A stretch of 24,994 bases of DNA. It comes from Baffinella frigidus (Eukaryota > Cryptophyceae > Cryptomonadales > Baffinellaceae). Positions 3,688-24,994 of this stretch are shown here, one piece after another. Under the pieces are notes generated by a model. It was not told where the DNA came from. It made no database searches and saw only the letters and a program-made list of their open reading frames with translations. How positions within the stretch are numbered: position 1 is the stretch's first letter; every line of letters starts with the position of its first letter. Position numbers and translations under genes: made by a program. The stretch covers positions 198,384-223,377 of the forward strand of contig MU646711.1 in the NCBI GenBank assembly GCA_026770585.1, read 5' to 3'.

Positions 3688-6600
3688 GTGCGCGATCCGG
3701 CTCGTTTCCTTGGACCCCCCCCCCCCCCTGGGGAGCAGCACGCACCTTGAATCTCTCCCCACATCTGCCCTGGATCGCTCAGGATTGAGACGACAGGATG
3801 GGAGGGATCTGTGGCCTTATTGCGGGAGCGGCGCCGAGTGGTGTCGGGGGTGCGAGCTGCCGCTGGAAGCGCCGCTGTGAAGCGTCGTGAGCACGTGGCG
3901 GTTTTGGGGTCGGGATGGCCACGCCGGGAATCCGGTTGGCTTGCTCAGGCAGAGCAGAACCAGTCCCGGAGGGACTCAGTTGATCTGCGACGTGTGTGCT
4001 GGCGTTGCTTGCGGTGGATGTGCAGCTGACGCACCTGCGTGTGGCCCGCACCGAGCAGGTATGACCGGGAGATCCGGTTTGATGTTCCTGTGGAGCAGCT
4101 GGAGCTGCGGCGGGGGGAGGTTGTTATCGATTGCATGAACTCGATCGAGGACACCAAGGGGAACAACGGGGAGAGCGGCGAGATGCAGGTCACGCCCGTT
4201 TGGCAGTCGGCCGCTTCATCAGTAATGCGAAAAGCTAACGCCAGCGGACCCCTTAGCCTACGGTAGGAACCCCCCCTCCTCCTACGACGTTTAAAACAGA
4301 AAGGTCTTTAAAAGTCGTAGGAGGGGGGCTCCTACCGTAGGCAATCCGTAGGCTCTAAGTACCTCGCTGGCGTTAGCTTTTTGCATGATCAGGAGGCAGG
4401 GAGCCACTTAAAAATGACCGATGCCTTTCTCCCCCGGATTTCCGGGTGAGATTCTGAGTTAATCCGAATTGAGTTGCGATTTGTACGGGAATCGTTTAGG
4501 TGGGCCGATTCCCGAAGTCACTGGTGGCTGCTGAGTGGGTAGAAGTCACACAGCGGGCTACGAAGGGAAAATACTGCCGATTATGTCCGACCTTCGGTTA
4601 GGATCGCCCTAGGAACAACCCTACGTTCCTGCGGATTGCCTATCTTAGGGTTTATGGATTATCCACTGATGGGTTATTCACGAAATCCTTTCGTAGTCGG
4701 CTGTGCGGAGTTAGAGGGGCTACCAGCCGCGGCTGGTCGCATAGGCAATCCGCAGGAACGTAGGGTTGTTCCTAGGGCGATCCTAACCGAAGGTCGGACA
4801 TAATCGGCAAGCCGGCTTGGGTTGGTTTTCCATGATGGGTTCCTGGTACAAATCCGTCAACTTTACAGTGAAACAACGCTCAACCTCAAACCCTAACACG
4901 CTAAACCCTAAACCCTGACACGCTAGTAGTCCGATGTGGGGGGGGGTGGAGGCATCAACTTCTCTGCACTCGATCTCCATTCGATCCGGGTAGCGCCGGG
5001 GCGAGCCCCTTTACCAAGTGGCCTTGTTTGTTTGTTTGTTTATTCCATGTGTTTGGGTTTATTCCTCGGGTTCCGAAACCTGAGGACGCGGCCTCGCGAC
5101 TGTTGACTAAACCTTGCAGGGTCTGTACCAGGGCGATGACTAACCCGTGCAGGTTCTGTACCGAGAAAGCGAGGATTAGTCAACCGTCTTGCCCAGGGGC
5201 TCGAAACCTGTTCGCATAAATATTTTATAACATTGTATTATTAGTCAACCCGCGTGTGCCTCGCATTGGCAGGTTACGAACCTGCGGATGATCTGGATAG
5301 CCAACTCCTCGTACCGAACGAACCTCACCGTCGGGTAGCACGCCCCTCCCTGCACCCTGAAACCAAACCCTAAACCCTGGACCCCAATCGTTGTCTAAAC
5401 CTTGAACCCTCTACCTTAGACCCCAAATTTATGAACTAAATTTCTAGACCTTCGCCCTAAAACCCTCACCCTAAACACAGCAAACCCTAGACACTAAATA
5501 CTAAACACTTAACCTCAAACATTACTGATCTGGATAGCCAACTCCTCGTACCGAACGAACCTCACCGTCGGGTAAACCCTAACCCCTAAATCCCAATTTT
5601 TGAACTCGAGCCCTAAACTCCAGACCCGAAGCCCTTGACGCCCTAAACCCCCAACCTAGTCGTAAAACCCCTGGATGGTTCGGTAGTTTCTCCTACGGCA
5701 TTGCCTAGGACCTCCTACCGTAGGCCAAAATCCTAGGACATTCTGGTCCTAGGAGCCCTACGGCCTACGGTAGGTAGGTCCTACCTAAATCCGTAGGGAA
5801 ACTACCGAACTTTCCAGGGGTTTCCCTATGAAACCCTAAACCCTGAACGTGACTGATCTGGATAGCCAACCACGCCAGGGCACAAGTTCCTTTTTCACAC
5901 ACACTCGTTCGCGCTAAAAGTGTTTAGATGGCTTATCGTGGTACAGATTTTAACAACTCCGCCAGCAAACAGCTCCATTTCCCAACACTTTTGGCCTGTT
6001 TCTCGGGCAGAATCAACTTTACTTCTTGATCGTGTAGTAAAATGAAAAAACGTTAAAATCTCGACTTGTGTGTGACCTGGCGTGGCTCCTCGTACCGAAC
6101 GAACCTCACCGTCGGGTAAACTGCACACCCTGAAACCCCAAACCCTAAAACCCAAATTGACTGTTCAAGTTCTGAACTTGACCCCCCAACCCCAGGTTCT
6201 AAACCCTATGCACACTAAACACTAAATAATAACAAAATAGTTATCTGGATAGCCAACTCCTCGTACTGAACGAACCTCACCGTCGGTAAACCCCAACCCA
6301 ACCCCGTACAATACACCCTAAACCCTGACACCCAAATTTCTGAGCCCTGGACCCTAAACCCCGGACCCTAAGCCCGATAAACACTAAACACTCAACATTA
6401 AACAATAAACGTGACTGATCTGGACAGCCAACTCCTCGTACTGAACGAACCTCACCGTCGGGTAACCCCGATACCCTCAAAACCCAAACCCTAAACCCTA
6501 AACCCTAAACCCAAAACCCTAATCGCTGACTACACCCTAAACCCTAAACCTTAGGCCCCAAATTTCTGACGTCTAGCCCTAAGCCCCCGACCCTAAGCCC

Positions 6601-24994: not shown

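Follow-up and report, generated by a model that had tools for sequence, protein, structure and literature searches.

Tandemly duplicated exons, which are often spliced as mutually exclusive alternatives, place copies of an exon in tandem within one gene, and introners and introns derived from miniature inverted-repeat transposable elements (MITEs) are repeats in introns that are dispersed among many genes. Here, we describe a 24,994-nucleotide stretch of nuclear DNA from Baffinella frigidus (the window; GenBank assembly GCA_026770585.1, contig MU646711.1) in which most exons of two genes, BBS5 and metH, are accompanied in the adjacent introns by partial copies of themselves ("ghosts"), very probably the remnants of many small local tandem duplications inside the genes. 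The closest described system is exon stuttering in birds, in which lateral exon parts are copied, together with the adjacent splice site, through the neighbouring intron (Hron et al, 2026; PMC12954441). According to that study, exon stuttering affects 236 introns of 115 genes in chicken, 190 of these introns lying on dot chromosomes, and for >90% of copies in birds the source lies at most one base from the exon border. Intron length varies extensively within species, and there is an association with GC-rich loci prone to form G-quadruplexes (G4s), though no strict criterion; G4-linked instability is listed there as a possible cause. The 2026 study presents the phenomenon as new, in birds, and states (data not shown) that gerbils, a possible second case, are the only other vertebrates in which it was found.

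Measured against this description, the Baffinella case has the anatomy of exon stuttering: partial exon copies stand in direct tandem, retain either the donor or the acceptor, lie in the adjacent intron only and leave an intact exon in place. The copied exon parts are of similar length (median 43 bp, range 21–76, in our BLASTn-short screen, compared to 36 bp in birds, PMC12954441), and the introns are likewise filled with repeats. By themselves, CCCTAAA-type heptamers (called at ≥11 of 14 matching bases) make up between 6 and 88% of an intron across the set of 15; the corresponding figures are 0% for exons and 1% and 5% for a pair of intergenic stretches. Unlike the avian examples, the host is a unicellular alga, its introns are rich in heptamers that read CCCTAAA in gene sense, and the overall GC content of the window is 53%, which is not extreme. 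The kind of process has already been described in birds; as far as our searches go, a protist host, a much higher local density and the heptamer-rich introns are new here. Within the literature searched, PMC12954441 is the sole paper to use "sequence stuttering" or "exon stuttering", and literature listings on exon copies, introners, telomere-like repeats in introns and protists or cryptophytes showed no evident match beyond the bird paper. With respect to mutually exclusive tandem exons, the pair of M2 exons in metH fits, whereas the other copies are truncated, lack one splice site and in several cases contain stop codons. The window resembles introner systems in carrying repeats inside introns and TA-flanked hairpins, but the ghosts, which are compared here rather than the hairpins, are local exon copies, none of 29 being distal within its own gene.

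Exon borders were set from BBS5 and metH homologues, giving the 13 BBS5 exons that the original prediction had counted from the letters alone (12 modelled exons, B1–B12, and the terminal exon B13) and five metH exons (M1–M5). A Smith–Waterman search (score ≥32) detected plus-strand copies for 13 of these 18 exons, nine of 13 in BBS5 and four of five in metH, bearing out the claim that most exons of both genes have copies nearby; no plus-strand copy at this score was found for B1, B3, B7, B13 and M4. The 34 aligned pieces comprise 26 with scores of 46–141 and eight with scores ≤40. Among 1,700 shuffled exons serving as control the best score was 35, and four of the 34 pieces are not above it, namely the first halves of the hairpin-split B2 and B5 ghosts and two B12 copies. 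A BLASTn-short screen modelled on that of PMC12954441 (copies ≥20 bp; 50 intron shuffles yielded one match, whose 26.3 bits were taken as threshold) returned 29 proximal copies, all on the plus strand beside their parent, 22 of which pass the published 42.1 bits. The 29 copies occupy ten of the 15 introns that separate the exons known at screening, as well as the outer sequence next to M1 and M5, and distal copies elsewhere among the introns of their own gene were absent (0 of 29). Individually, the predicted five loci each for the exons encoding NLRMIW (B2) and YSADPVYG (B10) hold. The three for WNLSADQ (B6) and the four for DDGHNIDV (B11) are reached only by counting one additional copy per exon, seen by eye near 9715 and near 13708, respectively. 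The three for ESLPD (B12) are present, two of them with scores no better than those of shuffled exons. Minus-strand matches to B10 stem from a palindrome internal to that exon. An inverted piece of B11 stands beside an inverted-looking 14-bp repeat array (14848–14943, the array seen by eye), which suggests an occasional strand-switching event. Exons and ghosts are as follows, exon positions of the copied part being given in brackets.

BBS5 exons:
4059–4188, plus strand: B1, without ghost
5273–5334, plus strand: B2 (NLRMIW exon), parent of five downstream ghosts
6760–6817, plus strand: B3, without ghost
7605–7706, plus strand: B4, GC donor inferred
8154–8222, plus strand: B5
9171–9248, plus strand: B6 (WNLSADQ exon)
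10209–10252, plus strand: B7, without ghost
10540–10588, plus strand: B8
11409–11528, plus strand: B9
12746–12847, plus strand: B10 (YSADPVYG exon)
13983–14053, plus strand: B11 (DDGHNIDV exon)
15407–15492, plus strand: B12 (ESLPD exon)
16224–16258, plus strand: terminal exon B13, ending in a stop, without ghost

BBS5 ghosts:
5526–5571, plus strand: B2 (17–62), donor GT retained
5854–6115, plus strand: B2, interrupted by a 215-bp hairpin insert at 5871–6085
6243–6286, plus strand: B2 (19–62), in-frame stop, donor G lost
6416–6461, plus strand: B2 (17–62), in-frame stop
6654–6700, plus strand: B2 (16–62), most diverged B2 ghost (89%), in-frame stop
7431–7491, plus strand: upstream ghost of B4 (1–62), acceptor AG retained, stop codon
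7884–7936, plus strand: downstream ghost of B4 (50–102), GC donor retained
8401–8626, plus strand: B5 (13–69), interrupted by a TA-flanked hairpin (8422–8591)
8888–8930, plus strand: upstream ghost of B6 (1–43), stop codon
9399–9422, plus strand: downstream ghost of B6 (55–78), hairpin directly behind its GTA
9819–9872, plus strand: downstream ghost of B6 (24–77)
10983–11020, plus strand: downstream ghost of B8 (11–48)
11260–11292, plus strand: upstream ghost of B9 (1–33)
11649–11718, plus strand: downstream ghost of B9 (51–120), stop codon
12218–12285, plus strand: upstream ghost of B10 (1–68)
12409–12476, plus strand: upstream ghost of B10 (1–68), left flank resembles the parent's
12587–12651, plus strand: upstream ghost of B10 (4–68), both flanks common to the 12218 ghost
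12962–13059, plus strand: downstream ghost of B10 (aligned 5–102), initial dozen bases weak
13208–13306, plus strand: downstream ghost of B10 (28–102), with a nested 22-bp tandem duplication
13560–13585, plus strand: upstream ghost of B11 (8–33), score 37
14672–14717, plus strand: downstream ghost of B11 (26–71)
14848–14943, minus strand: inverted B11 piece, match at 14855–14875, score 37
14945–14972, plus strand: downstream ghost of B11 (44–71)
15567–15585, plus strand: downstream ghost of B12 (68–86), in a 53-bp shared stretch of which ~34 bp are intron flank
15821–15839, plus strand: short downstream ghost of B12 (68–86), score 33, within shuffle range
16028–16053, plus strand: weak downstream ghost of B12 (59–84), score 32, within shuffle range

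metH exons:
21731–21787, plus strand: M1
22262–22324, plus strand: M2
23918–24003, plus strand: M3
24327–24393, plus strand: M4, without ghost
24608–24685, plus strand: M5

metH copies:
21427–21463, plus strand: upstream ghost of M1 (1–37)
22438–22468, plus strand: ghost of M2 (33–63), 100% identical
22701–22721, plus strand: ghost of M2 (33–53), positioned last in a 140-bp stretch that recurs at a distance of 263 bp with 99% identity
22809–22871, plus strand: complete second M2, 63 of 63 bases identical, both splice sites, 63 bp and in frame
23696–23734, plus strand: ghost of M3 (1–39), five synonymous differences, AG lost
24765–24794, plus strand: downstream ghost of M5 (49–78)

The copies follow a polarity rule: those upstream of their parent retain the start of the exon and lack its end, and those downstream retain the end and lack the start. 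At a tolerance of three bases, 28 of the 34 pieces reach the expected end only, none the opposite end only, one both and five neither (two of the five are first halves of hairpin-split ghosts and one lies within a nested duplication); at zero tolerance, the expected end is reached by 24, the opposite by none, neither by nine and both by one. In the raw BLAST alignments, upstream copies reach the exon start (≤1 base) in four of nine cases and the exon end in none of nine, and downstream copies reach the end in 17 of 20 and the start in one of 20, the complete M2 copy. Alignment ends thus lie ≤1 base from an exon border in 21 of 29 copies, below the >90% given for birds in PMC12954441. Listed by hand, with split or nested pieces counted as one, the truncated loci number 30, of which 28 obey the rule, two fit neither direction and none opposes it; a hand-entered list contains at least 21 distinct exon breakpoints, with 0 opposed. 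This polarity is exactly what a tandem duplication yields when it breaks once within the exon and once within the intron next to it.

The retention of one splice site per copy, as originally predicted, is confirmed, with GT in 19 of 22 downstream copies, the parent's GC in one more and AG in seven of 10 upstream copies; after by-eye correction of coordinates (one downstream and two upstream rows), the counts become 21 of 22 and nine of 10. A single retained splice site is the automatic outcome of tandem duplication and no sign of exon capture. Of the 34 pieces, only the M2 copy is complete, having an open frame with a splice site on either side; use of both M2 exons (22262–22324 and 22809–22871) would lengthen the protein by 21 residues. 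The further claim that copies are truncated where heptamers begin applies to the upstream side, where eight of nine breaks, three of them one shared break, lie ≤5 bp from a heptamer, but not to the downstream side (four of 21), the baseline being 0.39.

The pattern is not confined to these two genes. Seven 3-kb loci (L002–L008) were chosen via a hairpin family and not via ghosts; L002, L006 and L008 were read whole as sequence, L004 and L005 in part, and L003 and L007 were scanned for repeats only. Because the loci were read so unevenly, the two of seven with ghosts are a minimum and not a rate. L005 carries TRM61 (Pfam GCD14, E 2.5e-20; structure match to TRMT61A), one exon of which has three upstream copies and one downstream copy (36–64 bits), all conforming to the polarity rule, with BLAST starts of the upstream copies at exon positions 1, 4 and 9; for a second exon of L005 no copies were found. 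In L004, the exon MIDAKAWFISDLPVSLVLYYIVFVISAMCLI, which has no Pfam match, is followed by two downstream copies (99 and 96% identity) that again conform, and the first of them shares at least ~70 bp of intron flank with its parent, so that intron was duplicated along with exon. Both loci lie on other contigs, which goes against the refuting case set by the original prediction, in which BBS5 and metH alone would be affected. Two weak copies of one presumed exon in L006 (28 and 34 bits, below the published 42.1) were not counted. As a side observation, four further partly readable genome stretches were subjected to a repeat scan only: L027 has 24 direct-repeat pairs in 5.4 kb, with dense local direct repeats at 2664–4043 at an unrelated genome place, and L032 has one pair in 7.9 kb.

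The ghosts differ widely in age. Identity to the parent ranges from 100% to 84.6%, the lowest value belonging to a copy within the shuffle range and the next being 86.9%, and eight of 33 compared pieces show no substitution relative to the adjacent exon, including stretches of 46 of 46 and 63 of 63 bases. Five distinct in-frame stops are present across the ghosts. Ghosts of B2 and B5 are split by hairpins, as is, judged by eye, a B11 ghost, and a further hairpin directly follows the donor in one of the B6 ghosts. At least 21 breakpoints together with identities of 85–100% indicate many events over time. The three upstream ghosts of B10 have one common truncation point, and those at 12218 and 12587 share flanks on both sides, a ghost-of-ghost structure that fits exchange among copies; the block TAT TCG GCC is common to one upstream and one downstream B10 ghost. 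Intron flank is retained in some young copies, as in the B12 ghost at 15567 (34 bp) and the M2 copies (173 bp at 94%, 140 bp at 99%). The proposal of a continuing duplication of short exon-plus-intron pieces is thereby supported by the number of breakpoints, the divergence of 0 to ~15%, the copies of copies and the L004 copy with its flank. Local duplication also extends beyond the ghosts, to 20% of usable bases in introns (1144/5801), 8% in intergenic DNA (370/4376) and 56% in exons; the process is not exon-seeking, and intron DNA beyond the ghosts is locally duplicated as well.

A sequence of steps can be proposed. Duplication units of tens to several hundred bases would arise within genes, and breakpoints in an exon and its neighbouring intron would leave an intact exon with both splice sites plus a truncated outer copy with one. 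Selection would tolerate this outcome. Whole-exon duplications would lengthen the coding sequence or disturb the reading frame and mostly be lost, the sole complete copy being the in-frame 63-bp M2; such a selection filter is inferred. An existing ghost may then promote exchange between exon copies and heptamer arrays, generating more ghosts with identical truncation points, and ghosts would decay, gaining stop codons and hairpin insertions, as their flanks turn over. The molecular step would be unequal exchange or template switching at repeat-rich introns capable of forming G4s.

Several observations weigh against this account. Flanks past the retained splice site are only 50–53% alike (90 of 180 bases for 18 downstream copies, 42 of 80 for eight upstream copies), compared to 85–100% for the exon parts, unlike what simple duplication and equal neutral decay would give, and even the B2 ghost at 5526, whose 46 bases are identical to the parent, has not retained its flank. 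Faster turnover of unconstrained intron DNA may account for the low flank similarity, because some young copies (M2, B12 at 15567 and L004) do retain flank, although this is not proved. Differences between ghosts and parents lean synonymous (42 of 77 unique variants, five of five in the M3 ghost) and towards third positions; under simple neutral decay, the probability of this lean ranges from 0.0014 with an even mutation spectrum to 0.48 with a strong GC-to-AT bias. At 16 hand-chosen junctions, microhomology amounts to nine bases versus 5.9 expected, no clear excess. Finally, the four heptamer-richest introns (76–88%), among them the three shortest, are free of ghosts, so that heptamer load is not predictive and heptamer arrays as a direct trigger are unsupported.

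The dissimilar flanks and the synonymous lean could instead reflect function, the ghosts serving as alternative or decoy splice sites or as selected exon parts, or aiding the splicing of long introns by a nested order of donors followed by acceptors. In most copies the splice dinucleotides are retained, and in introns with both kinds ghost donors do precede ghost acceptors. Retention of two bases is also expected from low divergence, however, the order follows from tandem duplication, the synonymous excess disappears under a GC-to-AT mutation bias and in-frame stops are present, which leaves function unlikely as an explanation. Purifying selection on the ghosts was likewise considered and rejected, as it is opposed by the stop codons and the synonymous lean hinges on the mutation spectrum. 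The same synonymous-rich differences, and the TAT TCG GCC block on both sides of B10, would be understandable if ghosts had been templated by ectopic gene conversion from a diverged allele or gene copy rather than from the adjacent exon, but the eight pieces without any substitution relative to that exon and the strict adjacency and polarity make this decidedly unlikely.

Misassembled repeats or collapsed alleles might be suspected in introns so rich in repeats, above all for the identical or near-identical M2 copies. An assembly artefact is nevertheless very improbable, since many ghosts differ by up to 15%, carry stops and are in some cases split by hairpins, and neither the polarity rule nor similar copies on other contigs would be expected from it. 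Scarcely credible is the delivery of exon pieces into introns by introners or MITEs: many hairpin elements do populate the window, one family occurring at ≥40 genome places including the window, several stand inside ghosts and half-hairpins border the M2 ghosts, but the hairpins interrupt the ghosts, none of which is distal among the own-gene introns searched. Many small local tandem duplications remain the explanation that we favour.

The intron DNA has further regular features. The C-rich heptamer run stops ≤15 bp from the acceptor in 13 of the 15 introns, and the arrays may provide the pyrimidine tract and the branch site. Six introns contain heptamers in the TTTAGGG orientation, with an excess in the first half of B1–B2 (a trace), B4–B5, B6–B7, B8–B9 and B10–B11 and in the second half of B11–B12; where it covers ≥10% of an intron half, this is mostly the first half (four of five cases). 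With TTTAGGG in the first half and C-rich heptamers at the acceptor, the ends of an intron could pair in the RNA. In L004 and L005, whose exons lie on the opposite strand of the locus, the heptamers are C-rich in gene sense, too. A chromosome-end origin of the heptamers at the left edge was rejected, the window beginning 198 kb inside the contig. G4 motifs cover 16% of introns, 4% of intergenic DNA and 0% of exons, and GC content is 0.60 in exons and 0.52 in introns.

Hairpin elements are of several kinds. The one directly downstream of B1 (4219–4393) recurs at ≥39 further genome places with 94–98% identity among the best 40 candidates scored, and its family appears young and numerous as judged from these copies. 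Three different hairpins in or beside ghosts (8419–8594, 9423–9612 and 13719–13907) have TA on both sides, which points to several families using one target. Another family, with ends like CACACAGCGG, is found at 15620–15780, 16724–16884, 19961–20120, 22345–22438, 22608–22701 and 22892–23013, some copies being halved inside the tandem duplications at M2. One hairpin pattern was sought in viral contigs and gave 0 matches.

The window corresponds to positions 198384–223377 of a 328-kb contig in an assembly of 382 Mb and 1364 contigs. The BBS5 protein read from the window has its top match in a BBS5 record of Baffinella frigidus, with 99% identity across 93% of its length as query, and the matches ranked 2–7 are 70–77% identical. 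metH was identified by Pfam S-methyl_trans (E 1.2e-25); among the 120 metH homologues listed, none is named Baffinella. A start exon of BBS5 was not found in the homologue-based exon model. The listed exons are followed by GT donors, apart from a predicted GC after B4, which is supported by homologues that retain VQ at this point. The public BBS5 model (P0001) omits this VQ and, in the region 15493–16258, runs beyond B12 into a repeat, missing B13 (16224–16258). What it reads as the C-terminus is a dispersed small-hairpin repeat of ~55 bp (AAGTTGACGGATTTGTACC...GTCAACTT) present at 513–571 and 13 other places listed, on both strands. That a public model misses the true last exon is a warning for gene finders. 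A stretch at ~2866–3110 on the minus strand looks coding by eye.

The strain genome has been given as 534.5 Mb with 41.1% repeats, 6.1 times that of Guillardia theta (PMC9756366), and in the main text of that paper, as far as available, the words "intron" and "telomer" are absent. Growth of introns through copies of the kind described here is plausible: the three shortest of the 15 introns have no ghost, although ghost bases sum to only ~1.5 kb in the window (hand list). Tentatively, and with the odds somewhat against it, exon stuttering might operate genome-wide, not on special chromosomes only, in introns made up largely of telomere-type heptamer arrays in a fixed gene-sense orientation beside the acceptor, runaway duplication being a main route of intron growth in this enlarged genome. 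Local tandem duplications can lengthen introns while proteins stay intact, and each ghost is a datable record of one small duplication. Dense and independent occurrence of exon stuttering in a protist points to properties of intron DNA, and not to avian chromosomes, as the basis of the process; it provides a natural comparison for the mechanism, with the polarity rule as a simple test for exon stuttering.

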